The notes beneath the pieces were generated by a model, which saw only the letters and a program-made list of their open reading frames with translations, made no database searches and was not told the origin of the DNA. The position numbers and the translations under genes were made by a program. From NCBI RefSeq assembly GCF_005937185.1, contig NZ_VCNI01000001.1, forward strand, positions 1,546,657 through 1,610,656: a stretch of 64,000 nt of DNA, read 5' to 3'. Of this stretch, positions 3,831 through 49,104 are shown in pieces; position 1 is the first letter of the stretch, and every line of letters starts with the position of its first letter. The DNA comes from Flagellimonas algicola (lineage in GTDB: Bacteria; Bacteroidota; Bacteroidia; Flavobacteriales; Flavobacteriaceae).

Positions 3831-3852
3831 TACCCCTAATTTTATAGGGGTA
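3831..3852. promoter_or_regulatory. palindrome ACCCC-N10-GGGGT, copy 1 (distal, glnK-amt promoter)
   Basis: A perfect 8-bp inverted repeat, TACCCCTA ATTTTA TAGGGGTA, whose core is ACCCC-N10-GGGGT at 3832-3851. Its centre lies about 78 bp upstream of the predicted -7 element of the P-II gene. A T run follows, so it could also act as the terminator of crcB. The same core with identical spacing recurs at 3884 and at 28923, which favours an operator role. Confidence 0.5.
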
Positions 3853-3883: not shown

Positions 3884-3903
3884 ACCCCGTCATTTTGAGG
3901 GGT
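3884..3903. promoter_or_regulatory. palindrome ACCCC-N10-GGGGT, copy 2 (proximal, glnK-amt promoter)
   Basis: ACCCC and GGGGT half-sites separated by 10 bp, centred 52 bp (about five helical turns) from copy 1 and about 26 bp upstream of the TATATTTG element. It therefore overlaps the place where a -33 element would lie, as expected for an activator that contacts the polymerase. No T tract follows, so a terminator reading does not fit this copy. Confidence 0.55.
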
Positions 3904-3919
3904 TGGTAATGTTTTAACA

Positions 3920-3927
3920 TATATTTG
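3920..3927 (+). promoter_or_regulatory. Bacteroidota -7 promoter element for the P-II/Amt operon
   Basis: TATATTTG matches the Bacteroidota -7 consensus TAnnTTTG. It ends 23 bp before the P-II start codon. A clear TTTG -33 element is not visible; the palindrome at 3884-3903 sits there instead, suggesting activator dependence. Confidence 0.5.
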
Positions 3928-3950: not shown

Positions 3951-4289
3951 ATGAAAAAAGTCGAGGCAATTATTAGAAAATCCAAATTCGACGAGGTGAA
4001 AAAAGCACTTCATGGGATTGAGGTCAACTTCTTTAGTTACTGGGATGTAACAGGAGTTGGAAATGAAAAACAAGGCCACGTGTATCGTGGTATTTCCTAC
4101 AGTACTTCGGACATTCAAAGGAGGTACTTGGTTATTGTGGTATCGGATAGTTTTCTGGAACGTACCGTAAACACCCTTCTTGAATCAGCATCAACAGGAA
4201 ATGTCGGGGATGGTAAAATCTTCGTATCCGATGTGATTGAGGCTTACAGGATCAGAACAAAGGAAAGCGGCAGTGCCGGTATTAACTAA
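3951..4289 (+). CDS. glnK: P-II family nitrogen regulatory protein
   Basis: A 112-residue P-II signal protein, which senses ATP/ADP and 2-oxoglutarate and normally gates the ammonium transporter encoded next to it. The N-terminus MKKVEAIIRKSKFDEVKKAL and the B-loop TGNVGDGKIFV with C-terminal YRIRT are canonical. The T-loop (about residues 37-55) differs from the enterobacterial one: it is one residue shorter, and Tyr50 aligns with the modifiable Tyr51. The symbol glnK is by genomic context (amt 32 bp downstream). Two palindromes upstream suggest control by nitrogen status. Confidence 0.9.
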   Translation: MKKVEAIIRKSKFDEVKKALHGIEVNFFSYWDVTGVGNEKQGHVYRGISYSTSDIQRRYLVIVVSDSFLERTVNTLLESASTGNVGDGKIFVSDVIEAYRIRTKESGSAGIN

Positions 4290-4321: not shown

Positions 4322-5578
4322 ATGGACGCAGGATTATTTACAGCGAATAACGTATGGATGATGATTTGTACCGCCTTGGTGTTCTTTATGCACCTTGGAT
4401 TCTCTTTCTTGGAGATTGGACTTACTCGTCAGAAGAATACCGTGAACATTCTATTTAAGAATGTATTTATTATATGTGTTGGACTCCTATTATATTATAT
4501 AGGTGGTTTTAACTTGATGTATCCAGGATTTGAGGATGGCGACGCAGGCTTCCTTAAGTTTGCTGGATTTGGAATTGCAGCCCCAGAAAATGGAATGACC
4601 CCTGAATATGCCGATGGTGGCTATACATGGTGGACCGATTTTCTCTTCCAAGGTATGTTTGCCGCAACAGCAGCAACCATTGTTTCTGGAGCCGTGGCTG
4701 AAAGAGTGAAGCTTAAAAGCTTTATGTTGTTTACGGTCATTTATGTTGGCTTGGTTTACCCAATTGTAGGTTCATGGCAATGGGGTGGCGGATTCCTTTC
4801 TTCCCTTGCTTTTGGTGAAGCAGAAGGTTTCTACGATTTTGCAGGTTCCACTTTGGTACACTCTGTTGGAGGATGGGGCGCACTGATCGCAATTTACCTA
4901 TTGGGTGCGAGAATCGGAAAATTTGGAGAAGATGGAAAGCCAAAGGCCATTCCAGGACACAACCTTCCATTGGCAGCAGCTGGTGTTTTGATTCTTTGGT
5001 TGGGCTGGTTCGGATTCAACGGTGGTTCCGTACTATCTGCAGATCCAGAATTGACATCCCTAGTGCTTGTCACCACATCATTGGCAGCAGCAGCAGGTGG
5101 GGTATCCGCTTTCCTTACTTCTTTGTTCGCTTATAAAAACTACGATCTTACCATGTTCTTGAACGGAATCTTGGGCGGATTGGTTGGAATTACAGCAGGT
5201 GCGGACCAAATGTCCCCCAACGAAGCGGTAATCATCGGACTTATAGCAGGTGTGGTCATTGTAGCAGGAGTTGCATTGATCGACAAGCTTAAATTGGACG
5301 ACCCAGTAGGTGCCGTTGCGGTTCACTTGATCTGTGGTATGTGGGGTACGCTTGCCGTTGGAATCTTTGGCGACCTTGCCGGGTTTGACCAGTTCTTGGT
5401 ACAATTGGCCGGTGTAGGAGCTGCAGCAACATTCTGCTCCCTAACTGCATTTATCATTCTATTTACCATTAAAAAGGTATCTGGTATCCGAGTGGACGAA
5501 AAAGAAGAGCTACAAGGATTGGATATTCACGAGCATGGGATGGACGCTTATGCCGACTTTAGAATGAACCAACATTAA
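4322..5578 (+). CDS. amtB: ammonium transporter Amt
   Basis: A 418-residue Amt/Mep/Rh channel with about 11 membrane helices that conducts ammonium across the inner membrane. The twin pore histidines lie in STLVHSVGGWGALIA and VGAVAVHLICGMWGT; AERVKLKSFMLF and DDPVGAVAVH are Amt signatures. It follows the P-II gene by 32 bp, the standard glnK-amtB pair, so trimeric P-II probably blocks the channel. The C-terminal tail (about residues 385-418) is cytoplasmic and charged. A stem-loop follows the stop codon. Confidence 0.95.
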   Translation: MDAGLFTANNVWMMICTALVFFMHLGFSFLEIGLTRQKNTVNILFKNVFIICVGLLLYYIGGFNLMYPGFEDGDAGFLKFAGFGIAAPENGMTPEYADGGYTWWTDFLFQGMFAATAATIVSGAVAERVKLKSFMLFTVIYVGLVYPIVGSWQWGGGFLSSLAFGEAEGFYDFAGSTLVHSVGGWGALIAIYLLGARIGKFGEDGKPKAIPGHNLPLAAAGVLILWLGWFGFNGGSVLSADPELTSLVLVTTSLAAAAGGVSAFLTSLFAYKNYDLTMFLNGILGGLVGITAGADQMSPNEAVIIGLIAGVVIVAGVALIDKLKLDDPVGAVAVHLICGMWGTLAVGIFGDLAGFDQFLVQLAGVGAAATFCSLTAFIILFTIKKVSGIRVDEKEELQGLDIHEHGMDAYADFRMNQH

Positions 5579-5698: not shown

Positions 5699-6763
5699 AT
5701 GAAAACGATTATCAGCACAAAATACATAAAAAAAATAGCTTTTATAGCGCTAGCAAGTATCCCAGTATTGGCCTTCGCACAAGAGGAAGAAGAAGCCAAA
5801 ACTACATTTGAATTTAGTGGAACGGTTGATGCCTATTATCGCACCAACTTGACTGCACCCAATGGAGAGGACGCCATTGCCCCAGGCTCTTCTTTTGCCA
5901 ATTTGGATGGCTTTTCACTAGGTATGGCCAATATTATAGCTGCCTACGAAGGAGATAAGGTGGGTTTTGTGGCAGATTTGGTGTTCGGCCCAAGGGGAAC
6001 GGACGCTATCTTTGCCTCCCCCATGTACTCCGCTACTGGCGATATTGTTAACCAATTGTACGTATACTGGAATGTAAGTGAAGATGTAACCCTTACGTTT
6101 GGTAACTTCAACACCTTCTTGGGATACGAAGTAATTTCACCCGCAGCCAACTTTAACTACAGCACTTCCTATTTGTTCTCTTACGGTCCTTTTAGCCATA
6201 CCGGTTTAAAAGCGGACTTTGATCTTGGGAACGATTGGAGCGCAATGTTGGCGGTAATGAATCCTACGGATTTGACAGAGCTTAACGGAACAGGAGACTA
6301 TGCCGTTGGTGCCCAGTTGGGATACTCTGGTCAGTTCCTGAACTTCCTGTATAGCCAAGGCGGATTTGAGGTTGACTTTACCGGTGGGTTTGATGTATCT
6401 GAAGATTTCTTTTTGGGGGTAAATGCAGCTCACTTTAGCCAGGAAGACAATGGCGGAAGCTTTACTGGAGTTGCTCTTTATCCGCAATTGGCCACATCTG
6501 ACAACTTCACCATTGGCTTAAGAGGTGAATATTTTACAACCAGTGACGGATTTGACGACGTAGCTGGTATTGGTGCCTTTGGGGACACGGATGATGGAAG
6601 TGTTTTTGCCGTTACCTTGACGGGAAGTGCCACTGTTGGCGATTTGATTTTAAAGCCTGAAATCAGATTGGACAGCACTTCGGAAGATGCATTTATAGAC
6701 AATGATATGGAAGCCACAGGTAGTTTGGCATCCGTTCTTTTTGCCGCAATTTACTCTTTCTAG
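5699..6763 (+). CDS. outer-membrane beta-barrel porin (BBP2/OmpL-like)
   Basis: A 354-residue secreted protein with a Sec signal peptide (cleavage after VLAFA, residue about 27) followed by an acidic EEEEA stretch and repeating amphipathic beta-strands to a C-terminal aromatic SLASVLFAAIYSF, the usual outer-membrane insertion signal. The FSGTVDAYYRTNL beginning and NLDGFSLGMANI are typical of putative beta-barrel porin-2 proteins in Bacteroidota. Its place after amt suggests it admits small nitrogen compounds through the outer membrane; that role is inference. A terminator follows. Confidence 0.8.
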   Translation: MKTIISTKYIKKIAFIALASIPVLAFAQEEEEAKTTFEFSGTVDAYYRTNLTAPNGEDAIAPGSSFANLDGFSLGMANIIAAYEGDKVGFVADLVFGPRGTDAIFASPMYSATGDIVNQLYVYWNVSEDVTLTFGNFNTFLGYEVISPAANFNYSTSYLFSYGPFSHTGLKADFDLGNDWSAMLAVMNPTDLTELNGTGDYAVGAQLGYSGQFLNFLYSQGGFEVDFTGGFDVSEDFFLGVNAAHFSQEDNGGSFTGVALYPQLATSDNFTIGLRGEYFTTSDGFDDVAGIGAFGDTDDGSVFAVTLTGSATVGDLILKPEIRLDSTSEDAFIDNDMEATGSLASVLFAAIYSF

Positions 6764-26656: not shown

Positions 26657-28843
26657 TTACTTCGCAAAAAGAAGTTCGCGATATTTGGTAAAGGGCCACA
26701 CCTCATCTGAGACCAATTTTTCCAACTTGTCCGACTGTTCCCGAATCGTTTCAAAAAAAGGCCGTACATCATTGCAATAGGCTTGGGCTTTTTTATTGAT
26801 GGTAGAGAGTCCGTTGGCACGACGTCGAGCAGCGGTCATTTCATCAGTTTGTTTCTTTATTTCTGCCAAGTGCTCCCCAATTTGTTCCAAAATATTGAGC
26901 TGGCCTTCAGCTACCTTATTGTAGACCGCACCATAAATCTCCTTAAGCCCCTGAACGTTGGTCAAAAGGGAATTTTGATAGTTTACAGCGGCAGGAATTA
27001 TGTGATTGTACACCATTTCGCTCAGCACTCTCCCCTCTATCTGAACATGAAGAATATACGCATCCAATTCCACTTCTTGATGCGCTTTTAGTTCCACTTC
27101 GCTCAACACATCCATTTCCTTAAACAGGGCAATACTGTTCTTGGAAGTCAGTACTTGAAGGGCCTCTGGCGTATTTTTGTTATTGCTCAGTTTGCGTTTG
27201 CGCGCCTCATCTTGCCATTCGATACCGTAGCCATCCCCATCAAACCGAATACGTTTTGAGGTTTTAATATACTCCCGCAACACGTTGAACACAGCCTCAT
27301 CCTTTTTCAAGTTTTTCTTGTCAATCAAAACATCCACCTCCTTCTTAAAGTCCGAGAGCTGTTTGGCCACAATGGTGTTCAAAATGGTCATGGGTTTGGC
27401 ACAGTTGGTTTTAGCACCAACACCCCTCATTTCAAATTTGTTCCCTGTAAAGGCAAAAGGGGAGGTTCTGTTCCTATCCGTGTTATCCAGTAAAATTTCG
27501 GGGATTTTCCCCACCACATTGAGTTTCAATTCTGTTTTTTCCTGTGGCGATAGTTTACCTTGGGAAACTCCTTCCAATTCATCCAATACATCACTTAGTT
27601 GTTTGCCAATAAAAATGGACAGAATGGCCGGCGGTGCCTCATTGGCCCCCAACCGATAATCGTTACTTGCAGAAGCTATGGACGAACGCAAAAGTTCTTC
27701 ATAGGTATCCACCGCTTTGATCGTGTTCACAAAAAAGGTGAGGAACTGCAAATTCTTCATGGGCGTGGAACCCGGACTGAGCAGATTTACTCCAGTATCC
27801 GTAGCCAAGGACCAGTTATTGTGCTTTCCTGAACCATTTACCCCGGCAAAGGGCTTTTCATGAAATAAAACCGTGAAATTATGTTGGTCCGCAATTTCCT
27901 CCATTACATCCATTAACAATAGGTTGTGGTCTACAGACAGGTTGGCCTCCTCAAAAACCGGCGCCAATTCAAATTGGTTGGGTGCAACTTCATTATGCCT
28001 TGTCTTTACCGGAATTCCCAATTTGGTGCATTGCTTTTCCAAATCGCTCATAAAGCTGAGTGCCCGGGAGGGAATCACCCCAAAGTAATGATCATCCAAT
28101 TGTTGTCCTTTGGCGGCGGCATTGCCTACCAAGGTTCTTCCAGTCATGACCAAATCCAAACGAGATTTAGCCAAAGCCTTATCTATCAAGAAATACTCCT
28201 GTTCCCAACCCAATGTGGCATATACCTTACGTACATTTTTGTCAAAATATTGTGCTACGGAGGTTGCGGCTTCGTCTATGGCATGCAAAGCCCGTAACAA
28301 AGGAGCTTTGTTATCCAATGCCTCTCCTGTATACGCCACAAAAATGGTCGGAATGCAGAGCGTTGTTTTATAAATAAATGCTGGAGATGTGGGGTCCCAA
28401 GCCGTGTAGCCCCTAGCCTCAAACGTATTTCTTATTCCGCCGCTTGGAAAACTCGAAGCGTCCGGTTCTTGTTGTACAAGCTGGGCACCCCCAAACTTTT
28501 CCATAGCCCTTCCATCTGGCAAAATGTCAAAAAAGGCATCGTGTTTTTCTGCTGTGGAACCGGTTAACGGTTGAAACCAGTGGGTATAGTGTGTAGCTCC
28601 CATGGACAGGGCCCACGCTTTCATCCCTTCAGCCACCTGATCGGCAATTTTGCGATCTATCTTGGTTCCTTGAAAAATAGCCGATTTGACCTTTTCCAAA
28701 GCTTCCTTGGTCAAAAATTGAAGCATTTTCTCTTCGTTGAACACTTGCTGTCCAAAAAGTTGGGATCTTTTCCCTGTTTCCTCCACCTTTCTGTGGGTTC
28801 GCTTTCCACTCTCGGCAATGGCACCAAATCTAGTGTTTGACAT
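26657..28843 (-). CDS. glnN: glutamine synthetase type III
   Basis: A 728-residue GSIII, the large dodecameric ATP-dependent glutamine synthetase of Bacteroidota and cyanobacteria. Motifs include TTLCIPTIFVAYTGEALD, GWEQEYFLIDKALA, VAPNQFELAPVFEEAN and GVNGSGKHNNWSLATD, which carry the catalytic Glu and ammonium-site residues. Length is standard. It is divergent from a type II enzyme across a 212-bp region containing the ACCCC-N10-GGGGT palindrome, so both may answer one nitrogen regulator. Confidence 0.95.
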   Translation of the reverse strand: MSNTRFGAIAESGKRTHRKVEETGKRSQLFGQQVFNEEKMLQFLTKEALEKVKSAIFQGTKIDRKIADQVAEGMKAWALSMGATHYTHWFQPLTGSTAEKHDAFFDILPDGRAMEKFGGAQLVQQEPDASSFPSGGIRNTFEARGYTAWDPTSPAFIYKTTLCIPTIFVAYTGEALDNKAPLLRALHAIDEAATSVAQYFDKNVRKVYATLGWEQEYFLIDKALAKSRLDLVMTGRTLVGNAAAKGQQLDDHYFGVIPSRALSFMSDLEKQCTKLGIPVKTRHNEVAPNQFELAPVFEEANLSVDHNLLLMDVMEEIADQHNFTVLFHEKPFAGVNGSGKHNNWSLATDTGVNLLSPGSTPMKNLQFLTFFVNTIKAVDTYEELLRSSIASASNDYRLGANEAPPAILSIFIGKQLSDVLDELEGVSQGKLSPQEKTELKLNVVGKIPEILLDNTDRNRTSPFAFTGNKFEMRGVGAKTNCAKPMTILNTIVAKQLSDFKKEVDVLIDKKNLKKDEAVFNVLREYIKTSKRIRFDGDGYGIEWQDEARKRKLSNNKNTPEALQVLTSKNSIALFKEMDVLSEVELKAHQEVELDAYILHVQIEGRVLSEMVYNHIIPAAVNYQNSLLTNVQGLKEIYGAVYNKVAEGQLNILEQIGEHLAEIKKQTDEMTAARRRANGLSTINKKAQAYCNDVRPFFETIREQSDKLEKLVSDEVWPFTKYRELLFAK

Positions 28844-28863
28844 AGATAAACTTGTTTAAGCCA

Positions 28864-28871
28864 CAAAATTA
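28864..28871 (-). promoter_or_regulatory. possible -7 element for GSIII
   Basis: On the minus strand this reads TAATTTTG, matching TAnnTTTG, about 20 bp upstream of the GSIII start codon. The palindrome at 28923-28942 is centred about 61 bp upstream of it. Confidence 0.35.
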
Positions 28872-28922
28872 CAATTAACAATTTAATAATATATGCTTCA
28901 AAAATTACTTTTTTTTCATTTA

Positions 28923-28942
28923 ACCCCACTAAAAATGGGGGT
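28923..28942. promoter_or_regulatory. palindrome ACCCC-N10-GGGGT, copy 3 (GSIII/GSII intergenic)
   Basis: TAACCCC and GGGGTTA flank 10 bp at the same core spacing as the two copies before the P-II gene. Its centre lies about 78 bp upstream of the GSII -7 element, matching the distance of copy 1 from its promoter. No T tract follows on the plus strand, and no gene ends nearby, so it is not a terminator. Confidence 0.6.
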
Positions 28943-29009
28943 TATGAAAATTATAATGTCATGATTGCGATTTTAACCCTTCAAAATGCATATTATCAAC
29001 TGAAAAACA

Positions 29010-29017
29010 TACTTTTG
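29010..29017 (+). promoter_or_regulatory. -7 promoter element for GSII
   Basis: TACTTTTG matches the Bacteroidota TAnnTTTG consensus and ends 38 bp before the glutamine synthetase start codon. No clear TTTG -33 element is present. Confidence 0.5.
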
Positions 29018-29055
29018 TCTCTTTAAAATTTGAGAACAAAATAACGACCGCAATT

Positions 29056-30066
29056 ATGAGCAAATCTAAATTAGAGTACATCTGGTTGGACGGTTATGTG
29101 CCCACCGCCAATATGAGAAGTAAAACTAAAATTGAAGAGAATTTTAGTGGAAAATTGGAAGATTGTCCTATTTGGTCTTTCGACGGAAGTTCTACCCTTC
29201 AAGCTGAGGGAGGTTCTTCTGACTGTTTATTGAAACCTGTAGCGATTTACCCTGATCCCGCTAGAAAGAATGGTTATTTGGTAATGGCCGAGGTATTGAA
29301 TGCTGATGGCACCGCCCACGCTTCAAATTCAAGAGCCACTATTGACGATGAGAATGATGATTTCTGGTTCGGATTTGAGCAAGAATATTTCATCATGGAT
29401 ACAGACACCCTATTACCTTTAGGTTTCCCAATTGGTGGTTATCCTGGTCCACAGGGATTGTATTACTGCTCTGTTGGCGGGAAAAACACTTGGGGCCGCG
29501 AATTGGTTGAAAGACATGCCGATCTTTGCATTGAGGCTGGATTGAACTTTGAAGGTATTAACCAAGAGGTAGCTGCTGGACAGTGGGAGTTCCAGATTTT
29601 TGCCAAAGGAGCGAAAAGTGCAGGAGATCAAATTTGGGTTGCCCGTTACTTGTTGGATAGATTAACCGAAGAGTACGGTTATTATATTGAGTACCACCCA
29701 AAACCTATCAAAGGAGATTGGAATGGTTCCGGGATGCATGCCAACTTCTCAAACACTACCTTAAGAACCGCTGGCAACAAAGAAACGTATGAGAAAATCT
29801 GTGAAGCGTTCAGACCTGTTGCCAAAGAGCATATTGCGGTTTACGGAGAGTTCAATGATCAGCGTTTGACCGGCCTTCACGAAACAGCCTCCATCAATGA
29901 CTTTAGCTACGGCGTATCTGATAGAGGTGCATCTATTCGAATTCCAATCATTACCGTAGAAAAAGGTTGGAAAGGATGGTTGGAAGACAGAAGACCTGCC
30001 TCAAATGCAGACCCATATAAAGTTGCGGCCAGAATCATCACGACTGTAAAGTCGGCCGAAGTTTAA
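29056..30066 (+). CDS. glnA: glutamine synthetase type II (eukaryote-like)
   Basis: A 336-residue glutamine synthetase of the short beta-grasp type II, otherwise typical of eukaryotes and some bacteria. Motifs are IWSFDGSSTLQAEG, FGFEQEYFIMD (catalytic Glu), KGDWNGSGMHANFS and NDQRLTGLHETASINDFSYG. No adenylylation loop of the GSI type is present, so control is likely transcriptional. Divergent from GSIII; a shared palindrome lies between them. A terminator follows 30 bp after the stop. Confidence 0.95.
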   Translation: MSKSKLEYIWLDGYVPTANMRSKTKIEENFSGKLEDCPIWSFDGSSTLQAEGGSSDCLLKPVAIYPDPARKNGYLVMAEVLNADGTAHASNSRATIDDENDDFWFGFEQEYFIMDTDTLLPLGFPIGGYPGPQGLYYCSVGGKNTWGRELVERHADLCIEAGLNFEGINQEVAAGQWEFQIFAKGAKSAGDQIWVARYLLDRLTEEYGYYIEYHPKPIKGDWNGSGMHANFSNTTLRTAGNKETYEKICEAFRPVAKEHIAVYGEFNDQRLTGLHETASINDFSYGVSDRGASIRIPIITVEKGWKGWLEDRRPASNADPYKVAARIITTVKSAEV

Positions 30067-35387: not shown

Positions 35388-38300
35388 ATGATACCATTGG
35401 TTTGTTCAAATTACATGAAAGTTTTTATTGAAAATATCTTCTCAATAAAATATGCTTGTCTATTGTTTTTTTTGTTGGCAATGCTGAATGAAGGCTTTGC
35501 CCAAAATCAAATCTCTTTTGAGCATATCTCCACTAAAGATGGCCTTTCACAAAGCGACGTCAATACCATTTATCAGGATGAGTTCGGGTTTATGTGGTTT
35601 GGCACCCATGATGGACTCAACAAGTATGATGGATATGGATTTACTGTGTACAATCCCGATCATGAAAAACAAAGCAGTATCAACAGTAATTTGATTTTTG
35701 ATATTGTAGGAGATGATGATGGAAATCTTTGGATTGCTACAACGGGGAGAGGCATTAATTTTTTCAATGCGGCGACTGGCAAATTCACCCATTATGTGCA
35801 CGATGAAGAGGACCCCTCCAGCTTGGTCAATAACCATGTCACGGTAATATTTAAAGATAGTAAGAAAAGATTGTGGATTGGAACCCAACAGGGTCTTGAT
35901 ATGCTCGATCTTAGTTCATCTTCTGAAAAATTGGAGTTCCAACATTTTAGTTCCGAACAGGAACCTTTTGTCTCTGGTTGGGACGGCACTTCCATATTTA
36001 CAATTTATGAGGATAAAAAGGGCCAATTGCTGGTAGGTGGCACATCCGGGCTGTTCAAACTTAATAAAGATACCAATGGTAAAGATTACTTTGGTAATAT
36101 CAACAAAAATCTTGGCTTACCTGACGTGAATGTTAGAGGTATAGCAGAGGACTCTACTGGACGTCTTTTTGTTGCTACCAATACTGGTTTGTATAGTCAT
36201 ATTAAGGGCAGCGGGAAAACCATGCAAAAGTGGTATGATGGATATTTCTCAGTTCTGTTGATTGATAAGAATAATCGTTTATGGGCAGGATCAAATGATG
36301 GTTTATACTTGTTTGAGAATACTTCTCAAGCAACTTTTCCTAAGTTTTTAAACCGGTTTGTTTATGATTCTCGAAATCCTAACAGCCTTAGCAAAAATAT
36401 TGTGAGGTCCCTTTATGAGGATGATACCGGTATTATTTGGATTGGAACCAATGGGGGTGGCATAAACACCTATGATCCTGATAGAAAGCAATTTAAACAC
36501 ATAAGAAATACATCTGCCCCCAATAGTCTTAGTTATGACAAAATAAGAGCTATGTTCGAAGACAGCAATGGTACCTTATGGATTGGTACCGAAGGTGGTG
36601 GTTTGAATATGCTTGATCAAAAGGACGACAATGGTTCATATAGCTCTTTTAAGCATTTTAGTTCCATCTCGAGAATATTTGCCCTCACGGAGGTTAGAAT
36701 AGGCGATAAAAAAAAGTTGTTTATCGGGACCGAGGGCACACCCAGCTTGTTTCAATTGGATATTACGGATCCAAAAAAAACTTCAGAAAAAGAGTTGGTT
36801 ACAGAAGAGCTAAGACATAGTGTTTTTAGTTTGTTGACCGACACTCAAGAAAACATCTGGATTGGCACCTATGGTTCAGGGGTACATAGGTGGATGAAGA
36901 CAGATATGCCCAACCAATATATAAAAGACACCTTCGCATTTTATCCAGGCGTCATCAATTCAGTGCCCAGCAACATTATCAGAAATATATTTGAAGATAG
37001 TGTGGGAAACATTTGGCTGGGTACTGCCAATGGACTTTGCAAGATACCTGCAAAGGAACGCTATAAAAAGGCACCAAAAATTTTGGTCTATAAGAATGAC
37101 CCCAAGTATCCCGGCTCATTAAGTCATAATTATATTCTGTCTTTATATGAAAGTACTTCAGGTGATTTATGGGTAGGCACTTTTGGAGGAGGCCTTAACA
37201 AGCTAGTATCTTCAAATGACAACAATTTAAACACTTTTGTTTCCTATTCAGAGCGCGATGGGTTGCCCAACAATGTGATCAAAGGTATTTTAGAAGATGC
37301 AACAGGTAATTTATGGTTATCAACCAACCAAGGTCTTTCAAAATTTGACCCTAAGAGGAAAACATTCAAAAACTATAGTTCCAGTGATGGACTGCAAAAT
37401 AATGAATTTCAAGAGCTTGCTTGTGTAAAAAGAGCGGATGGTGAAATGCTTTTTGGAGGGATTAATGGTTTTAATGCCTTTTATCCAAATGAAATTAGTG
37501 ACAATGAGTATCTGGCCCAGACCGTAATCACCAACTTATTGATATCGAACAAAACCGTTGGTATAGGTGAGAAAATAAAAGGAAGGGTAATATTAGAGAA
37601 GAACATCAACAAGACTGAGGAAATACAATTAAAGTATAGAGAAAATAGTTTTTCATTTGAATTTGCTGCATTGCATTATTCGGCCCCTTCTAAAAACCAA
37701 TTCGCGTATCGGTTAGAAGGATTTGATTCTGATTGGACCTTAACTTCTTCGAAAAAACGCTTTGCCACCTACACCAATCTAGAACCGGGCAGCTATACAT
37801 TTAAGGTAAAGGCCTCCAATAATGATGGTCTTTGGAGCGACACAGCTACCCAACTTAAGGTTAATATCATACCTCCTTTTTGGCGCACAACAATGGCCTA
37901 TATAATTTATGTTCTTTTATTACTTGGCCTTCTATGGCTTTTTTGGAGGTATACCTTCATTCGAACTTCTGAAAAGCACCAATTGGAATTGGAACATCTT
38001 GAAAAAGAAAGGTCGGAACAACTGCAGAAGATGAAACTTGAATTTTTCACTAATATATCGCATGAATTTCGCACCCCCTTGACCCTAATAAAGGGGCCTT
38101 TGGAGTATCTACAAAAAAATGTGGGAACCATGAATCAGGCGTCCTTAAAGGAACAGCTAGGTATCATGCAAAAAAACACCTCTTACTTATTACGGTTGGT
38201 TGGTCAATTACTGGATTTTAGAAAGTTGAACCAAGGTAAAATGAGATTGGTCATGCGCAACAGTAATGTAAGTACGTTCATCAAAGAGGTTGGTGAGCCT

Positions 38301-39647
38301 TTTCAATTTATTGCTAGTAAACAATCTTTGGACTTTAAAATAGAATCCTCTAATGAAAACCTTATGGCTTGGTTTGACCACCAAGCTTTAGAAAAAATCA
38401 TAAACAATTTATTGTCCAATGCCTTTAAGTTTACCAAGTCCGGAGATACCATTAAGATAAAGATTTCTGAAAAGACCGAGGAAGGGAGTGATTTGGTAGT
38501 TGTTAAAGTCAAAGACTCTGGAATGGGCATACCGAAAAATAAAATTTCCAATATTTTCGAAAGATTTCATTCAGGAAAGGACAATTCTAAAATGAATCCT
38601 GAAGGTATGGGGATTGGGCTGGCTTTCACAAAAAATTTGATAGAATTGCATCAGGGGTCTATAGATGTAATTAGCGAACCCAATAAGGGCACAACTTTTA
38701 CGGTAAAGCTTCCAAAAGACAGGAGGGCCTACCAGGATATAAAAGAAATTACTTGTAAGGAGGTCTCAGATAATGACTTTCTCGTACGAACTTCTGAAAC
38801 TGAATCGTTTGCAATTGGTCTCAACGACGATTTAATAGATCAAAGCCTTCATAATGAAAGGTCAAACTTACCTGTCTTGCTTTTAGTTGATGATAACCCG
38901 GACATTCGTGCGTTCATTAAACAGGTTTTAGCAAAGAGCTATACCATCTTTGAGGCAGAAAATGGAAAGCAAGGTCTCGATATCGCCAACAAAATTGTGC
39001 CCAACGTAGTTATTTGCGATATTTTAATGCCTGTTATGGATGGTATTGAATTCTGTCAAAAGATGAAGTCACGTACAGAAACAAGTCACATTCCAATTAT
39101 AATACTAACGGCCAAGTCGTCTCAAGAAAGCGAATTACAGGGTCTTCAATTGGGAGTAGACGAATACCTCAGAAAACCTTTTGGATTTGAAGTCTTGGAA
39201 CTCAAACTTTCAAATATTGTTAAACGTCGTGAGCAGTTAAGAAAAAAATTCAACAGGGAAATTGCTTTGACTCCTAGTGAAGTTACCGTAACAACAATGG
39301 ATGAACGTTTCTTGGGACAGGCCATCGATATTGTTGAACAAAATATGATGAATACCGATTTTAATGTGGAAATGCTGGTGCGTGAAATGGGGCTTAGCAG
39401 AAGTAACCTTTATCTAAAATTCAAAGAACTAACGGGACTTTCTTCGAGTGGGTTCATCAGAAACGTTCGGTTAAAGCGTGCAGTACAATTATTCGATACC
39501 AGTGATTTATCAGTAAAAGAAATAATGTATATGACCGGGTTTAACACAGCTTCTTACTTCTCAAAATGTTTCAAAAAACAGTTTGGGATAGTACCTAGTG
39601 AATATGTTCGGCAAACAGGCCCCAAAACCAAACCAATGCCCCGCTAA
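35388..39647 (+). CDS. hybrid two-component system sensor/regulator (HTCS)
   Basis: A 1419-residue one-protein two-component system of the type that controls Bacteroidota polysaccharide loci. Order: signal peptide (a start at 35415, MKVFIENIF, gives the cleaner one), two seven-bladed propellers of WIGT-type repeats (about 45-690), Y_Y_Y domain (about 745-830), one membrane helix (about 840-860), HisKA with His892 in ISHEFRTPLTL, HATPase (NNLLSNAFKF, DSGMGIP), receiver with Asp1211 in ICDILMPVMDG, and a C-terminal AraC HTH. It probably senses an oligosaccharide released from the target glycan and activates the neighbouring genes. Confidence 0.95.
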   Translation: MIPLVCSNYMKVFIENIFSIKYACLLFFLLAMLNEGFAQNQISFEHISTKDGLSQSDVNTIYQDEFGFMWFGTHDGLNKYDGYGFTVYNPDHEKQSSINSNLIFDIVGDDDGNLWIATTGRGINFFNAATGKFTHYVHDEEDPSSLVNNHVTVIFKDSKKRLWIGTQQGLDMLDLSSSSEKLEFQHFSSEQEPFVSGWDGTSIFTIYEDKKGQLLVGGTSGLFKLNKDTNGKDYFGNINKNLGLPDVNVRGIAEDSTGRLFVATNTGLYSHIKGSGKTMQKWYDGYFSVLLIDKNNRLWAGSNDGLYLFENTSQATFPKFLNRFVYDSRNPNSLSKNIVRSLYEDDTGIIWIGTNGGGINTYDPDRKQFKHIRNTSAPNSLSYDKIRAMFEDSNGTLWIGTEGGGLNMLDQKDDNGSYSSFKHFSSISRIFALTEVRIGDKKKLFIGTEGTPSLFQLDITDPKKTSEKELVTEELRHSVFSLLTDTQENIWIGTYGSGVHRWMKTDMPNQYIKDTFAFYPGVINSVPSNIIRNIFEDSVGNIWLGTANGLCKIPAKERYKKAPKILVYKNDPKYPGSLSHNYILSLYESTSGDLWVGTFGGGLNKLVSSNDNNLNTFVSYSERDGLPNNVIKGILEDATGNLWLSTNQGLSKFDPKRKTFKNYSSSDGLQNNEFQELACVKRADGEMLFGGINGFNAFYPNEISDNEYLAQTVITNLLISNKTVGIGEKIKGRVILEKNINKTEEIQLKYRENSFSFEFAALHYSAPSKNQFAYRLEGFDSDWTLTSSKKRFATYTNLEPGSYTFKVKASNNDGLWSDTATQLKVNIIPPFWRTTMAYIIYVLLLLGLLWLFWRYTFIRTSEKHQLELEHLEKERSEQLQKMKLEFFTNISHEFRTPLTLIKGPLEYLQKNVGTMNQASLKEQLGIMQKNTSYLLRLVGQLLDFRKLNQGKMRLVMRNSNVSTFIKEVGEPFQFIASKQSLDFKIESSNENLMAWFDHQALEKIINNLLSNAFKFTKSGDTIKIKISEKTEEGSDLVVVKVKDSGMGIPKNKISNIFERFHSGKDNSKMNPEGMGIGLAFTKNLIELHQGSIDVISEPNKGTTFTVKLPKDRRAYQDIKEITCKEVSDNDFLVRTSETESFAIGLNDDLIDQSLHNERSNLPVLLLVDDNPDIRAFIKQVLAKSYTIFEAENGKQGLDIANKIVPNVVICDILMPVMDGIEFCQKMKSRTETSHIPIIILTAKSSQESELQGLQLGVDEYLRKPFGFEVLELKLSNIVKRREQLRKKFNREIALTPSEVTVTTMDERFLGQAIDIVEQNMMNTDFNVEMLVREMGLSRSNLYLKFKELTGLSSSGFIRNVRLKRAVQLFDTSDLSVKEIMYMTGFNTASYFSKCFKKQFGIVPSEYVRQTGPKTKPMPR

Positions 39648-39658
39648 AAATTCGTGAA

Positions 39659-41473
39659 ATGAAACGAGCAAAAAAAACATTGATCTCTATCCTAGGAATA
39701 CTCCTGTTTTTGACAACTATTGGTTGTGCAGAGCAACCCAAACAGCAACTGGGTTCAGCCACCCGACCTAACATTATCATAATTTTTACAGATGATCAAG
39801 GTTATGGCGATTTGGGCTACCATGGTAATCCATGGATAAAAACACCAAATCTGGATGCATTTGCCAAGCAATCCCTAGAATTAACTAATTTTCATGTTGG
39901 TACCACTTGCACTCCCAGTCGTGCAGGATTGATGACCGGGCGTAATGCCAATCGAAACAATGCCTGGCACACCATCGCCGGTTGTTCCATACTTAATCAA
40001 GATGAAGAAACCATGCCCGAGGTATTCGCTAAAAATGGGTATGAGACTGCTATGTTCGGCAAGTGGCACCTTGGAGACAACTACCCCTTCAGACCATTTG
40101 ACCGCGGTTTCAAATATTCGTTTTATCACGGTGGTGGTGGGGTAAATCAAACCCCGGATTACTGGAATAACAACTACTTCAATGACACTTATTTTCGAAA
40201 TGGGGAAGCCGAAAAAACAGAGGGTTATTGCACGGATGTTTGGTTTAAGGAGGGATTAAAATTTTTAGATCAAAAACGAGATTCTCCGTTTTTAATGTAT
40301 CTCTCACTTAACGCAGCCCATGGCCCATTTAATGTACCTCAAGAGTATGCAGAAATGTACAATTCAGCACCCTTGACCGAGATTCAGAAAAGGTTTTATG
40401 GTATGATTACCAATATTGATGACAATTTCGGTAGGCTTATTTCCTATCTCAAAAGAAAGAATCTTTTTGACAATACAATTGTCATATTTACTACCGATAA
40501 CGGAACTGCCGGAGGCATAAAAACACAAAAAGATGGTACTGTTTTGGGTTATAACGCGGGATTGCGAGGCGTTAAAGGCAGTCATTACGAAGGCGGGCAT
40601 AAAGTTCCCTTTTTTATGAGTTGGCCAAAGGGTAACCTTATCCAAGAAACTTCGAATAACGAACTGGTGGCCCATGTAGACCTTTTGCCCACACTTGCCG
40701 AACTTACAGGAATAACTTATCAACCTAAAAAACCCTTAGATGGCACTAGTGTTGCCAAAATTATTAAAGGCGAACAAAGCACTATAGACCGTATGTTAGT
40801 GGTAGATACCCAAAGAGGGCAATGGCCGGTAAAGGGAAAAAACAGTTGCGTAATGAAAGGGCCTTGGCGTTTAATCGATGGCGCCGAACTTTATAATATC
40901 CATGATGATCCAGGTCAGCAAAACGACGTTGCAAAAGAACATCCAGAAATGGTTTCCAATATGCAAGCCTTTTACAATTCGTGGTGGACAAGCATTGAGC
41001 CTGATATGAATTATGCTGAGATTCCATTAGGCCACGATCAGGCCAACCCTGTATTATTGACCATTCATGATTTACATACTACAGACCCCTTGCCGTGGAA
41101 TCAAGTACAAATTAGAAATGGGAAAGCTGCCCCAAAAGGGTTTTACAGCATCAATGTTGTCGAAGGTGGCACTTATCAATTTAAACTATATCGTTACCCG
41201 CCTGATTCGGGACTACCAATGAATGCTTCGGCAAAAGAAAAAGCAGGTAGTGCCTTTGTTGATAACCTGCCCAAAGGTTTAGGCATTAGTCCAACACATG
41301 CTAAGGTAAATGTAGGGTCGGTACTATTACAAGCCAAGGTAGCTGAAGAACAAAGCTATGCCGTTTTGGTTGGCCAGCTTTCCAAAGGTAGCCATGAACT
41401 GTCAAGTAGTTTCTTGGTAGAAAAAGGTCAAGAAATTCCTGCATACTATACAGAAATAGAAAAATTGGACTGA
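39659..41473 (+). CDS. formylglycine-dependent sulfatase (S1), lipoprotein
   Basis: A 604-residue S1-family sulfatase with a lipoprotein signal (LLFLTTIGC). Cys84 in CTPSRAGLMTGR is the residue converted to formylglycine; metal ligands lie in IFTDDQGYGDLG and TTDNGTAGG, and GKWHLGDNYP is the second signature. After the catalytic domain (to about 440) comes an extra beta-rich C-terminal domain (about 440-604). It starts 11 bp after the HTCS gene. Overall layout is shared with the sulfatase at 51084. Specific sulfate position cannot be told. Confidence 0.93.
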   Translation: MKRAKKTLISILGILLFLTTIGCAEQPKQQLGSATRPNIIIIFTDDQGYGDLGYHGNPWIKTPNLDAFAKQSLELTNFHVGTTCTPSRAGLMTGRNANRNNAWHTIAGCSILNQDEETMPEVFAKNGYETAMFGKWHLGDNYPFRPFDRGFKYSFYHGGGGVNQTPDYWNNNYFNDTYFRNGEAEKTEGYCTDVWFKEGLKFLDQKRDSPFLMYLSLNAAHGPFNVPQEYAEMYNSAPLTEIQKRFYGMITNIDDNFGRLISYLKRKNLFDNTIVIFTTDNGTAGGIKTQKDGTVLGYNAGLRGVKGSHYEGGHKVPFFMSWPKGNLIQETSNNELVAHVDLLPTLAELTGITYQPKKPLDGTSVAKIIKGEQSTIDRMLVVDTQRGQWPVKGKNSCVMKGPWRLIDGAELYNIHDDPGQQNDVAKEHPEMVSNMQAFYNSWWTSIEPDMNYAEIPLGHDQANPVLLTIHDLHTTDPLPWNQVQIRNGKAAPKGFYSINVVEGGTYQFKLYRYPPDSGLPMNASAKEKAGSAFVDNLPKGLGISPTHAKVNVGSVLLQAKVAEEQSYAVLVGQLSKGSHELSSSFLVEKGQEIPAYYTEIEKLD

Positions 41474-41481
41474 CGTCTAGT

Positions 41482-41713
41482 TTGAAAAAATTAGGTATTG
41501 TATTAGCTTTTGCATTATTAACCTGTAATGCAGGCAAAAATAAGATCTCCTAAAGTCCAACCTCAGCTAAGTTATTACAAGGCAATTTGTTATGGATATA
41601 TCAAAGTGCAAAGCTTAAAACACAAGGACAGATATGAACTTGTTGCATACCTCAATATTGACCAAATTCTATTGAATGAAATGAGGGAAAATCCCGGGGC
41701 AATAAACTTTTAG
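41482..41713 (+). pseudogene. remnant of a lipoprotein gene
   Basis: A TTG at 41482 opens 23 codons encoding a complete lipoprotein signal peptide (KKLGIVLAFALLTCNAGK, lipobox LLTC) and then stops at 41551. A second overlapping frame (41528-41713, 61 residues, ending YLNIDQILLNEMRENPGAIN) continues in another frame. Together they look like the head of a lost lipoprotein gene after a deletion or frameshift, 8 bp downstream of the sulfatase. The original product is not recognisable. Confidence 0.45.
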
Positions 41714-41817
41714 TTAGAAGACCCCAATTGCAAGGGTAAGGTTAAAAACCAAAGTAACTTCAATAAGAAACGTCCCATTGGAGCTCGAAATCGACGTTGT
41801 AAACCGAGAAGGAAGTA

Positions 41818-42162
41818 TTATAGCTGAAACACTTTCTCCAATGCTATCCATTTCTCGCCTTCCTTGGCCCATGGTAAACCTTGTTGATACTTCCACATTA
41901 AGGCTTCCCATTCTTGAACATGTGGATTAGCGGCATCCATTTCGGCCTTTTTCTGTGGATCAAAGGTTTCATCAACATCCATAATCATAAACATGCGATT
42001 ACCCGTCAAATAAATCTGCATATCTACAATACCGGCATCTTTAATGCTTTGCGTTATTTCTGGTCTGGCATTACCCTTAGCATGATAGTTCTTGTATTCC
42101 TCGATAAGTTTTGGGTCATCTTTCAGATCGCAAGAAAAACAGTGTCGAATAGTTTTAATCAT
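41818..42162 (-). CDS. L-fucose/L-rhamnose mutarotase
   Basis: A 114-residue RhaM-type (formerly DUF718) dimeric ferredoxin-fold mutarotase that interconverts anomers of 6-deoxy sugars. The active-site His is in RHCFSCDLKDD-type N-terminus, with MQIYLTGNRMFMIMDVDE and a C-terminal PWAKEGEKWIALEKVF motif. The ATG at 42162 is preferred to one 15 codons upstream that would overlap the transporter gene. Beside a FucP-like symporter and a GH29 fucosidase it most likely acts on L-fucose. Confidence 0.87.
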   Translation of the reverse strand: MIKTIRHCFSCDLKDDPKLIEEYKNYHAKGNARPEITQSIKDAGIVDMQIYLTGNRMFMIMDVDETFDPQKKAEMDAANPHVQEWEALMWKYQQGLPWAKEGEKWIALEKVFQL

Positions 42163-42169
42163 AATGGAA

Positions 42170-43492
42170 TTATTTCTTTTGATAGACCTGGTATACTTTC
42201 TTTCCATACAGCGCCACCACTAATAGACAAATTAAGGAAAGTACAAACGAGAATCTCATTTCAGAAACTCCAAGAAAATCAACATCTTGATACCCTACAC
42301 CTCCAAAATCCAGCATGTACCCCTGCAAGTATGGTAAAAGTGCGCCTCCAACTATGGCCATTACCAAAAAGGCAGCGCCGAATTTTGCGTCTTCCCCCTG
42401 TCCTTCTAGCGCTATTCCGTAAATGGTTGGAAACATTATCGACATGAAAAGTGATGTAGCAATTAGCGAATAGATTCCTAACATACCCGGTAAAAAAATA
42501 GCTCCCAAAAGGGTTAACATTCCTCCAAAACCGAAAAGCATCAATAATTTCCCAGCGGGTATTTTCGTCATTAATGCGGTACCTAGTGTTCTTCCAACCA
42601 AAAAAACAATATACCCGGCCAAACCGTAATAAACCGCAGATTTTGCATCAATACTTAAGGTTTCGGCATATTGGTAAACATACGTCCAACACATAATTTG
42701 GGCTCCTACATAAAATGCCTGTGCTACCACACCAAACGCAAATTTAGGTTTGCTCCATAATCTCTTGACAGAGTCTAAAAAATTCACAGTGGCCTCTTGA
42801 TGCTTATTCTGCGGCATTTTTACCAAAGTAATCAAAACAAAAAATAACAAAACAACAAGGCCTAAAATAACATATGGGTTTCTAATGATTTCAAGGTCAG
42901 AAGTTCTAATTGCGCCTTTTGCCATTTCAGATAGCGAATCGTAGATAGGGATACCATCCGCGGTAGTATCATCTGATTGCAATGCACCTAGGACAAAATT
43001 CTGGGCAATTAGCAGTCCTAAAATAGAACCCATTGGATTAAACATTTGAGCAAAATTTAAACGCTGTGTTGCCGTTTCTTCAGCACCCATGGATAGTATA
43101 TATGGGTTAGAAGTGGTCTCCAAAAAGGCTAACCCAAATGTTAGAATGTAAAGGGCTGCCAAAAAGAATCCATAGCTTTCGTTTGCTGCTGCAGGATAGA
43201 ATAACAAAGCACCCGTGGCATACAGCGCCAACCCTAATAAAACCCCTTTTTTATATGAGAATTTATTCACGAATAGGGCGGCTGGTATGGCCATCGTAAA
43301 ATAGCCTCCATAAAATGCCAACTGAACTAGCGAGGCTTGGGTATTACTTAGTTCCAGCACTTTTTGGAAACCTCTCACCATTGGGTTGGTCATGTCATTT
43401 GCCAGTCCCCACAATGCAAACAGGGAGGTAATTAATATGAAGGGAATAAGTACTGCTTTTGAAACTACGGGTATTTTATTGTTTTCTGCCAT
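42170..43492 (-). CDS. fucP: FucP-like L-fucose/H+ symporter (MFS)
   Basis: A 440-residue major facilitator with 12 helices of the FHS/FucP group. Motifs include LFALWGLANDMTNPMV (helix 1, with the proton-coupling Asp region), QLAFYGGYFTMAIPAALF and TSNPYILSMGAEE. It would carry L-fucose into the cytoplasm. It is 19 bp downstream of the SDR gene and 7 bp upstream of the mutarotase start, so one transcript carries all three. The name rests on family and context. Confidence 0.87.
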   Translation of the reverse strand: MAENNKIPVVSKAVLIPFILITSLFALWGLANDMTNPMVRGFQKVLELSNTQASLVQLAFYGGYFTMAIPAALFVNKFSYKKGVLLGLALYATGALLFYPAAANESYGFFLAALYILTFGLAFLETTSNPYILSMGAEETATQRLNFAQMFNPMGSILGLLIAQNFVLGALQSDDTTADGIPIYDSLSEMAKGAIRTSDLEIIRNPYVILGLVVLLFFVLITLVKMPQNKHQEATVNFLDSVKRLWSKPKFAFGVVAQAFYVGAQIMCWTYVYQYAETLSIDAKSAVYYGLAGYIVFLVGRTLGTALMTKIPAGKLLMLFGFGGMLTLLGAIFLPGMLGIYSLIATSLFMSIMFPTIYGIALEGQGEDAKFGAAFLVMAIVGGALLPYLQGYMLDFGGVGYQDVDFLGVSEMRFSFVLSLICLLVVALYGKKVYQVYQKK

Positions 43493-43511
43493 TGGATGGT
43501 TTGTTTGGTCA

Positions 43512-44306
43512 TTATTCGTCCGTTAAAAGCGAACGATCCAAATGCACATAGCCACCGTCCACAAAAATAAATTGACCTGTAGTGTGTGATGATCTGTCCG
43601 AAATTGTGAATAGACAGGCATTTGCTATTTCGTCAGTGCTGGTCATACGATTCTCCAACGGAATTTTTTCTATGATGGATTTTAACTTTTCTTCACCATT
43701 TGGCAAAGTCCTAATCCACGTGTCATATGAAGGTGTCCAGCTTTCGGCTATGATTATGGCATTGGAACGTATACCGTAATGTATCAGATCTACCGCCCAC
43801 TCCCTGGTCAACCCTAAAACCCCGCCTTTAGATGCTGCGTAGCCAGAAGTTCTTCCTTGTCCCGTAAGAGCTACTTTTGATCCGATGTTTAAAATATTGC
43901 CTTTGGATGTTATTAGGAAGGGAAGTGCGTATTTTACGATCATAAAATAGCTCACCATATTCAGTTTCAGTGAGTTCATGAATTCTTCGTAAGAACCATC
44001 CAAGCCAACTCCGTCGTTTACGCCCACATTATTGATTACAACATCAATTCGTCCATATTTTTTTGATATGGTATTTAGTGCCTTCTCAATTTGCTCCGGG
44101 TCGGTAACATCGGTCTGGCAAAAAACGGCGTCAACGCCCTTTTGTTGAAGTTTTTTCACATAATCGAAACCACGACTATTTCTATCAATGACCGCTGGTA
44201 TTGCGCCTTCTTCTCCCAAGCGTTGCAGAATGGTCTCACCTATGCTGCCTTCTTTTCCTGCTGCTCCGCTGATAACGACTATTTTGCCTCTTAAGTTTAA
44301 ATCCAT
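43512..44306 (-). CDS. SDR family L-fucose dehydrogenase-like oxidoreductase
   Basis: A 264-residue classical short-chain dehydrogenase: Rossmann motif SGAAGKEGSIGE, INNVGVNDGVG, catalytic YAASK (SGYAASKGGVLGL) and C-terminal TGQFIFVDGGYVHLDRSL. In fucose operons this type oxidises L-fucose to the lactone with NAD(P)+. The first gene of the SDR-fucP-mutarotase operon; the 290 bp upstream contain no gene and presumably its promoter. Confidence 0.82.
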   Translation of the reverse strand: MDLNLRGKIVVISGAAGKEGSIGETILQRLGEEGAIPAVIDRNSRGFDYVKKLQQKGVDAVFCQTDVTDPEQIEKALNTISKKYGRIDVVINNVGVNDGVGLDGSYEEFMNSLKLNMVSYFMIVKYALPFLITSKGNILNIGSKVALTGQGRTSGYAASKGGVLGLTREWAVDLIHYGIRSNAIIIAESWTPSYDTWIRTLPNGEEKLKSIIEKIPLENRMTSTDEIANACLFTISDRSSHTTGQFIFVDGGYVHLDRSLLTDE

Positions 44307-44596
44307 ATTCCATTCTTTTAATGCCCTGTTATCTTCAGTTATGAAATGTAATTTTCATTATTATCAAGGTTTATTACTTGGAAAAAAACCAACAAACAAT
44401 AAAAGTTCATTGTATTTTTATCCATAACATCTTTCAAAATCTACATTATTTACTGATGCGGTCTGGGGTCATGTATCGTAATTTGCTTTAGGAATCATGC
44501 CTAACCACTCACAATTCGCATTCCCTTTCGCAACAAAATATTGTCTTGTGGACGCATTTGCAGAAACTGTTTCGAAGTCTAGTTTTTCCCTTAGTA

Positions 44597-45613
44597 TTAA
44601 TCAAAATCAACCAGTGCCTTGATTACCCCATTGGCTGGATCTAACCACCCATCAAAATTGGCAATCATTTCTGTATAGGTTGCTTTATGGGTAATAAAAG
44701 AATCCAACGGAAATTTACCTTCCTCCAAAACACTAATTACATTTTCAAAATCTTCAATCGTTGCATTACGACTACATAAAATACTAGTCTCTTTAGAGTG
44801 TATTTTTGGGTGAGAATACACGAGTTCACCTTTAGAAAGTCCAACTAATACATACCTGCCACCATGTGCCATATATTCTATTCCGGATTCTAATGCTCCT
44901 TTATGGCCTGTTGCATCAAATACCACATTTGCCAAATCCCCATCGGTAATATCAAAGACATGCTGTGCGGCATGATTTCCTCCCAAAACCACATATTCCA
45001 CCCCTATGTTATTCTGGGCATAATCTAAACGTTGTTGATTCATATCGATTGCAATCACCTTACTTCCAGCTATTTGCGCTAACTTCATAATACCCAATCC
45101 AATAGGGCCACAACCAACAACCACAACCGTTTCTCCGGGTTTAAGGTTTGAACGACGAATAGCGTGTGCTCCAATAGCCAATGGCTCAACTATGGCCATT
45201 TGGTCATTGGTCAAATCACGGGCAGGTATCAATAAACTCACTGGTACAGCAATTCGTTGTTGCATGCCCCCATCGGTATGCACACCCAGCACTTGTAAAT
45301 TTGAGCAGCAATTGGTTTTCCCATTTCGGCAGGCATTACAATTACCGCAATTTACATAGGGCATTACGATTACATTATCACCTGTTTTTATCCCTTGTTC
45401 GTTTTTATCAATTTCTACCACCTGAGTTGCTAACTCATGACCCAATATTCTTGGGTAGGTAAAAAAGGGTTGATTCCCCGCATAGGCATGTAGGTCCGTA
45501 CCACAGATTCCGACCTTTTTTACTTCTAAAATGGCCTCAGTCGAACTTCTTGTCGGTTCTTTTTTTTCTTTGAGGATAAACTGGCCAGGGCTTTCGCAAA
45601 CAATATATTTCAT
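44597..45613 (-). CDS. zinc-dependent alcohol dehydrogenase
   Basis: A 338-residue medium-chain dehydrogenase. Catalytic zinc ligands lie in GICGTDLHAYAG and GHELATQVVE; the structural zinc Cys cluster is CGNCNACRNGKTNCC; the NAD-binding motif is VVVGCGPIGLGIMKLA. It is related to L-galactonate/threonine-3-dehydrogenase-like enzymes. In this setting a step after L-fucose oxidation (for example on a 2-keto-3-deoxy acid) is plausible but not provable. No lactonase or dehydratase gene of the pathway is in the window. Confidence 0.85.
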   Translation of the reverse strand: MKYIVCESPGQFILKEKKEPTRSSTEAILEVKKVGICGTDLHAYAGNQPFFTYPRILGHELATQVVEIDKNEQGIKTGDNVIVMPYVNCGNCNACRNGKTNCCSNLQVLGVHTDGGMQQRIAVPVSLLIPARDLTNDQMAIVEPLAIGAHAIRRSNLKPGETVVVVGCGPIGLGIMKLAQIAGSKVIAIDMNQQRLDYAQNNIGVEYVVLGGNHAAQHVFDITDGDLANVVFDATGHKGALESGIEYMAHGGRYVLVGLSKGELVYSHPKIHSKETSILCSRNATIEDFENVISVLEEGKFPLDSFITHKATYTEMIANFDGWLDPANGVIKALVDFD

Positions 45614-45705
45614 TAAAATTGATTAAAGACTCTTAGAAAGATAAGCCACTAAGGCATACCTGCTCCTTGATACCACCTACTTAAACGAATTAGTTTTTTT
45701 AATTA

Positions 45706-47253: not shown

Positions 47254-47703
47254 AACATGGCATGTATTAATGGTTAAGGCACTATTTGCCGGAAGTCTAA
47301 ATTCCCGTTTTTCGTCCCATTTGCCTACCAAAGATGTTCTAATGTATAGAACAAATGGTCATTTTACCTTGCTTTATTTTCCTCTGAAATAGGCTTTTTA
47401 ATTCTTTTTAATGATTCATCTTAACGCATGACATCTTTAACATGAAAAGGTATTGTCCAATGGTCAAGGCAAAAAAATGTGATCAGAATTTTGTTAAGAA
47501 TTCGGTTCGTTGCTTTTTACTATCACATATGATCAAACCTGCACCTGTAATGTTTTATCCGCTTCCATAAAAACAATCATTTCTTAATTTTAACTGGTAT
47601 GTGAAAAGAGTTGTGACTAAGCCCATTTTTATTCGTATTCAACTTTTTCATTATAAAAATGTACAGAAGAATTTACTTCCTTTCTTGTAATTGACTATAC
47701 CGC
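47254..47703. other. 450-bp divergent promoter region
   Basis: Between the divergent fucosidase and sulfatase genes. No protein-like frame or tRNA. It must hold both promoters, and possibly the HTCS operator, but I could not identify a convincing element. Confidence 0.5.
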
Positions 47704-49101: not shown

Positions 49102-49104
49102 CAT

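Follow-up and report, generated by a model that had tools for sequence, protein, structure and literature searches.

In the Bacilli, GlnR and TnrA recognise a palindromic box that is common to the promoters of glutamine synthetase and of amtB-glnK and that overlaps the promoter. The NtrC/sigma-54 regulon of Proteobacteria targets glnA and glnK-amtB and makes use of paired upstream sites, and the same pathway is governed by the global nitrogen regulators NtcA in cyanobacteria, AmtR and GlnR in actinobacteria and NrpR in archaea. For the Bacteroidota, a search of the open-access literature (subscription papers being outside its scope) found neither a transcription regulator of nitrogen assimilation nor a motif of this kind. 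The amtB, glnK and GSIII-2 transcripts of Prevotella ruminicola, a member of another order, are ammonium-responsive, and the accessible part of that source names no regulator for the response (PMC5552732).

We analysed a stretch of 64,000 nucleotides from Flagellimonas algicola, referred to as the window, in which the palindrome ACCCC-N10-GGGGT occurs three times and nowhere else. Two copies, the distal copy 1 (3832..3851) and the proximal copy 2 (3884..3903), stand before a PII-AmtB-BBP2 porin gene cluster, and copy 3, ACCCCACTAAAAATGGGGGT, lies at 28923..28942 between the divergent genes for GSIII and GSII and is common to the promoters of both; all are exact pattern matches with no strand assigned. 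A sequence-only reading of this DNA had reported three identical half-site pairs with identical spacing and held them to be hard to explain by chance. The pattern search placed copy 3 exactly where that reading had, with identical half-sites and a 10-bp spacer in all three copies, and dinucleotide shuffles of the window (n = 100) gave a mean of 0.09 matches and never reached three, which makes a chance origin unlikely; the observation of a three-copy palindrome is real. The whole 4.54-Mb genome holds 8 exact matches against 2 for a reversed-pattern control, and the remaining five comprise three within open reading frames and two intergenic matches with GC-rich, stem-like arms. When one mismatch was allowed (WACCCCN10GGGGTW) there was no enrichment in this genome, the control giving 61 matches and the pattern 30. 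Thus the genomic excess is limited to exact sites, and a large regulon is not indicated.

The PII-amtB promoter has its -7 element, TATATTTG, on the plus strand at 3920..3927, assigned from the consensus for such elements and the alignment of the genus. It is followed on the same strand by the genes for a P-II family protein (3951..4289; Pfam PF00543), the ammonium transporter AmtB (4322..5578; Pfam PF00909, NCBIfam TIGR00836) and, downstream of amtB, a BBP2 outer-membrane porin (5699..6763; Pfam PF07642). Judged by PII identity, the genus stands near Allomuricauda/Flagellimonas; among the best 80 of 561 matches to the PII protein, the best named one has 96% identity. From the centre of copy 1 to that of the -7 element is 82 bp, and copy 2, 52 bp downstream of copy 1, overlaps the expected -33 region.

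In the second region the type III glutamine synthetase gene GSIII runs on the minus strand (26657..28843; Pfam PF12437, PF18318 and PF00120), and inspection of the sequence places its -7 element, TAATTTTG, at 28864..28871 on that strand. The GSII-type glutamine synthetase gene occupies 29056..30066 on the plus strand (Pfam PF00120 and PF03951; the best NCBIfam match is GlnII, at 394 bits under a cut-off of 500) and has its -7 element, TACTTTTG, at 29010..29017 on the plus strand, as seen in the sequence and in the genus alignment. A proximal half-site of the GSII promoter, ACCCT, is found at 28976..28980 on the plus strand, 53 bp downstream of the start of copy 3, and this step resembles the 52-bp step from copy 1 to copy 2. 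The minus-strand half-site of copy 3 starts 71 bp upstream of the GSIII -7 element, a distance that falls in the class-wide range. Copy 3 had been said to lie about 78 bp from the GSII -7 element, essentially as far as copy 1 from its own promoter; centre to centre the distance is 81 bp, so that the figure needed correction while the equality with copy 1 (82 bp) holds. Elsewhere in the window, within 35388-52853, a hybrid two-component regulator (propeller, kinase, receiver and AraC-type HTH) adjoins a sulfatase gene (39659-41473), and three further sulfatase-like genes lie at 47704-52853; the region 35388-52853 looks like a sulfated-polysaccharide utilisation locus.

Like the GlnR/TnrA regulons, the two window promoters share one palindromic box between glutamine synthetase and amtB-PII, with overlap of the promoter. 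However, the GlnR/TnrA box, TGTNAN7TNACA, is matched with at best 2 of 8 mismatches in both promoters, and the boxes here step by 52 bp. The target genes and the paired upstream sites are likewise those of the NtrC/sigma-54 regulon, but the NtrC box has at best 6 and 4 mismatches out of 12, a sigma-54 promoter has 4 out of 11, and the promoters here carry TAnnTTTG -7 elements. The consensus boxes of NtcA, AmtR, actinobacterial GlnR and NrpR have 2-5 mismatches. As judged against consensus sequences, then, the boxes of the known nitrogen regulators have no good match in the window promoters.

We used orthologous loci to examine whether the sites keep their place within the genus. Twenty-four PII loci were collected, from which L075 and L078 were dropped for an incomplete start or upstream region, and the site is kept in all 22 usable loci, at -118 to -120 from the PII start codon, with 10/10 half-site bases in 21 of them and 9/10 in the other. 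The distance from site to -7 element is 82 bp in 21 of the 22 and 83 bp in one, and TATATTTG itself is present in 22/22 aligned loci; at the position of copy 2, the other genus loci have a degenerate box only. Of the 23 GSII loci of the genus, 22 have a site with at least 8/10 half-site bases at -131 to -133 relative to the start codon, and the remaining locus has 7/10 at the same place. Here the distance to the -7 element, which reads TA[CT]TTTTG in 23/23 loci, is 81 bp in 21, 82 bp in one and 97 bp in one, and a proximal xCCC stands at an offset of 52 or 53 in every one of the 23. Comparison of the orthologous GSIII/GSII regions, as the sequence-only reading had proposed, thus finds the site at a fixed position across nearly the whole genus; four GSII loci of other families (L044, L046, L050 and L051), excluded from the genus count, have no site. 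Conservation by alignment column is highest in the half-sites, at 1.97 bits for PII (spacer 1.37, flanks about 1.17) and 1.70 bits for GSII (spacer 0.89, flanks about 1.4).

A search of 14 genus genomes with the pattern ACCCYNNNWWWWNNNRGGGT gave 68 matches, many of them outside promoters, and the control gave 37. It also added a target, in that the promoter of alanine dehydrogenase (ald) carries the box in 10 of the 14 genomes. These ten ald promoters, from ten genomes, came from 20 stretches around selected ACCCYNNNWWWWNNNRGGGT matches; ald was sought only where the pattern matched, which left out four genomes, that of F. algicola included, and the identity of the gene was confirmed for two by Pfam and for one by NCBIfam. 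The main ald box lies at -133 to -137, and several of the promoters have further boxes at about -187 and about -83. Among genus genomes there is also a similar hairpin, ACCCCGAT...ATCGGGGT, with a varying loop (L007 1501-1520, and in G015, G050, G058, G064 and G072), which is probably one conserved terminator or attenuator and not an operator.

The palindromes themselves might be intrinsic terminators or RNA hairpins instead of operators. Copy 1 does score as an intrinsic-terminator-like hairpin on the plus strand, with a T-run, and the T-run after the PII site is conserved among the genus PII loci. However, a scan of the GSIII/GSII region for terminators found none, the ald and GSII sites have no T-run after them, and an Rfam search returned only two sub-threshold chance matches; for copy 3 and ald the terminator or RNA element is rejected on these three grounds. 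The sites moreover lie upstream of -7 elements, and their 52-bp phasing would be left unexplained. We therefore consider this explanation highly improbable for the palindromes as a set, and a second role as a terminator possible for copy 1.

Another way to view the site is from the side of GSIII, which was identified in 113 of the 119 class genomes searched. We assembled 93 GSIII upstream regions, 90 from the class set and three from other families of the order, and found ACCC-N10..14-GGGT within 300 bp in 19 of them, compared with 0.44 in shuffles and none for a CCCA/TGGG control; in 24 of the 93 not even a half-site was found. An unbiased scan for palindromic half-sites in these regions ranked ACCCC first (13 upstream regions, none expected), ahead of T- and A-tracts, making it the top GC-containing half-site. 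For comparison with 266 upstream regions of other genes at the same GSIII loci, one GSIII upstream shorter than 200 bp was dropped, leaving 92. Half-sites within 200 bp are present in 65 of the 92 against 38 of the 266 controls (p = 2.7e-23), at least two half-sites in 51 against 5, and full sites in 19 against none. T-tract/A-tract pairs also turned up among the palindromic candidates before GSIII. Pairs of the form TTTTG...CAAAA occur in 15 of the upstream regions (1.1 expected), including 13 of the 74 that have no ACCC...GGGT palindrome; they are perhaps the box of another regulator, or promoter A/T-tracts. In the 1,046,388 bases (of about 1.7 Mb) of genome G031, the only operator-like site is that of GSIII, and ald is without one.

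The distances between half-sites at GSIII are strongly clustered. ACCCC-ACCCC pairs lie 50-56 bp apart in 18 of 33 cases, clustering at 51-54 bp, as do 11 of 19 GGGGT-GGGGT pairs at 50-56 bp, and from GGGGT to the next ACCCC the distance is 37-38 bp in 16 of 28. The step from ACCCC to GGGGT, 15-16 bp in 12 of 22, is the palindrome itself, whose spacer varies class-wide by one base (a step of 15 or 16 bp). Full and half boxes alike are thus repeated at intervals of about 52 bp, or five helical turns. Across the class, the -7 element mostly comes 15-17 bp after the start of the proximal ACCCC and 51-54 bp after that of the distal GGGGT. In the genus of F. algicola the start of the proximal box is about 36 bp from the -7 element, two turns further up than the 15-17 bp of the other relatives.

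We also scanned named genomes by alignment to the PII protein, keeping the best 80 of 561 matches. Among these, a full site lies within 350 bp of the PII gene in 21 of 38 Flavobacteriia loci, six of which have two full sites 49-56 bp apart, compared with 16 of 1419 control tiles from the same loci. Seven more Flavobacteriia loci have full sites before a neighbouring gene of the PII cluster. The sequence-only reading had named homologous promoters without the motif as evidence against it: most of those compared do carry it, and that objection stands for the ten of 38 Flavobacteriia loci (Tenacibaculum, Flavobacterium and Wenyingzhuangia included) with no full site near the PII cluster and for the non-Flavobacteriia PII loci, of which, again among the best 80 of 561 matches and with one locus of short upstream left out, 1 of 41 has a full site and 40 do not. 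Five named Flavobacteriia loci (L295, L298, L299, L306 and L311) have full sites between a gltB-type gene, Pfam-confirmed in L298 and L311, and a porin-PII-amtB cluster. L295, L300 and L306 have clusters in which two or three copies of the PII gene and at least two ammonium-transporter genes stand in tandem. One genome of another family has two occurrences of a perfect palindrome, ACCCCCTCAATTGAGGGGGT (G033:C1:116928 and G033:C2:13429), and a relative has one (G092:C20:3381).

One motif is thus present at several nitrogen-assimilation promoters (PII-amtB, GSIII/GSII, ald and the gltB-side intergenic regions), and its position and sequence are conserved among relatives beyond chance. As judged from DNA sequence, its standing as a common cis-element of nitrogen-assimilation promoters appears well supported, and we think it very probably the operator of a nitrogen regulator. 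The candidate nitrogen regulon that had been proposed gains support from the fixed positions within the genus, from the ald and gltB targets and from the enrichment before GSIII over controls and shuffles. The putative operator also extends well beyond the genus, and in this the finding appears larger than the sequence-only reading had stated.

From the boxes, their phasing, their conservation and the genes that they precede, we infer a protein that binds as dimers, cooperatively, and represses in response to a nitrogen signal. The operator would belong to a transcription regulator of nitrogen control that Flavobacteriales share with others in the class. Dimers would occupy the boxes through ACCCC and/or GGGGT arms around an AT-rich centre, and boxes about 52 bp, or five helical turns, apart would lie on the same face of the DNA. 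The upstream box would be strong; the proximal one, which overlaps the core promoter (the -33 region in the genus and, in many other GSIII promoters, the stretch up to the -7 element), would be weak and occupied cooperatively. Same-face boxes of this kind, with a strong one upstream and a weak one in the core promoter, would fit a cooperative dimeric regulator. Repression would prevail when nitrogen is plentiful and be released when it is scarce, and release would jointly raise ammonium uptake (AmtB, PII and porin) and glutamine synthetase, GOGAT and alanine dehydrogenase. Given that the weak box and the -33 or -7 region overlap, we consider a repressor rather than an activator probable; the model as a whole, an operator array of boxes about 52 bp apart that likely serves a repressor in nitrogen excess, we favour by a smaller degree.

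The same operator array could instead serve an activator under nitrogen scarcity, with the boxes at about -90 and about -33 recruiting RNA polymerase. The distal centre keeps a constant 81-82 bp from the -7 element, as is the case for activators in contact with the polymerase, and the aligned genus PII promoters show no evident -33 element of the TTTG type. However, both positions of the proximal box overlap core promoter DNA, and in many GSIII promoters of the class the proximal ACCCC is only 15-17 bp before the -7 element, where blocking is easier to picture than helping. We therefore hold an activator to be the less probable of the two, if a reasonable possibility.

As for the protein that would read the putative operator, the sequence-only reading had suggested a search for a co-conserved regulator gene. 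This search did not pin one down: AsnC and Rrf2 families are patchy, a small MerR-type protein is nearly universal, and beside GSIII no regulator family recurs in the 93 loci (clusters in at least four loci). A regulator of the Lrp/AsnC or Rrf2 family acting across the class would be in keeping with an Lrp/AsnC-type gene in the window (9754-10203, minus strand, profile match), with an AsnC-like family in 13 of 38 PII neighbourhoods and, for Rrf2, with the similar half-site step of IscR-type boxes. However, AsnC_trans_reg is present in 8 of the 19 genomes with the full motif and absent from 11, and Rrf2 is present in 13 (one below cut-off) and absent from 6. Both are therefore unlikely class-wide regulators, the AsnC-type neighbour of PII being rejected on its absence from those 11 genomes, and we rate this the least probable of all the explanations considered. 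Some members of the Crp, LuxR-type, TetR and OmpR families were found in G031 (phmmer, again in 1,046,388 bases of about 1.7 Mb).

The small MerR-type protein, which would be an effector-less regulator present in almost every genome of the order, is encoded in F. algicola at L149 5609-5938 on the minus strand (PF13411-type match). It has no sensor domain, and its gene, which follows an M23-peptidase-like gene and stands beside an alaS-like gene, is present in nearly all relatives searched. PF13411 (MerR_1) is found in 19/19 full-motif genomes, in 18 of which the open frame does not exceed 149 aa, and a match of at most 149 aa is found in 37 of 39 relatives, some with more than one. GlnR and TnrA of Bacilli belong to the MerR superfamily, and the 20-bp, 7-6-7 geometry of the box is like that of MerR-family boxes such as SoxR's; however, LuxR-type boxes have the same 20-bp geometry, so that geometry does not decide for MerR. 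Of the 24 genomes whose GSIII upstream regions have no half-sites, 22 also encode the protein, and the DNA-binding region stays conserved in the presence or absence of the motif (28 of 29 rows readable), so that sequence differences do not discriminate. Its nearest solved structures in the PDB are CueR-like (TnrA E = 0.013, GlnR E = 0.19), and every NCBIfam match is under its cut-off, the TnrA model reaching 24.7 bits against 140. We also looked for autoregulation, and rejected it: upstream of the MerR operon, the only full site in the 30 loci inspected is one that recurs within the coding sequence of the adjacent gene. The small MerR-type protein is thus a candidate and not an answer, and an unlikely one on present evidence; that it should further be the Bacteroidota counterpart of GlnR/TnrA, an ancient master nitrogen regulator for much of the class that would sense via glutamine synthetase and act on phased operator pairs, we regard as more doubtful again.

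A conserved, phased putative operator at the glutamine synthetase, PII-amtB, ald and gltB genes would provide a bait for the protein that binds it, and nitrogen control in marine flavobacteria would become directly testable.
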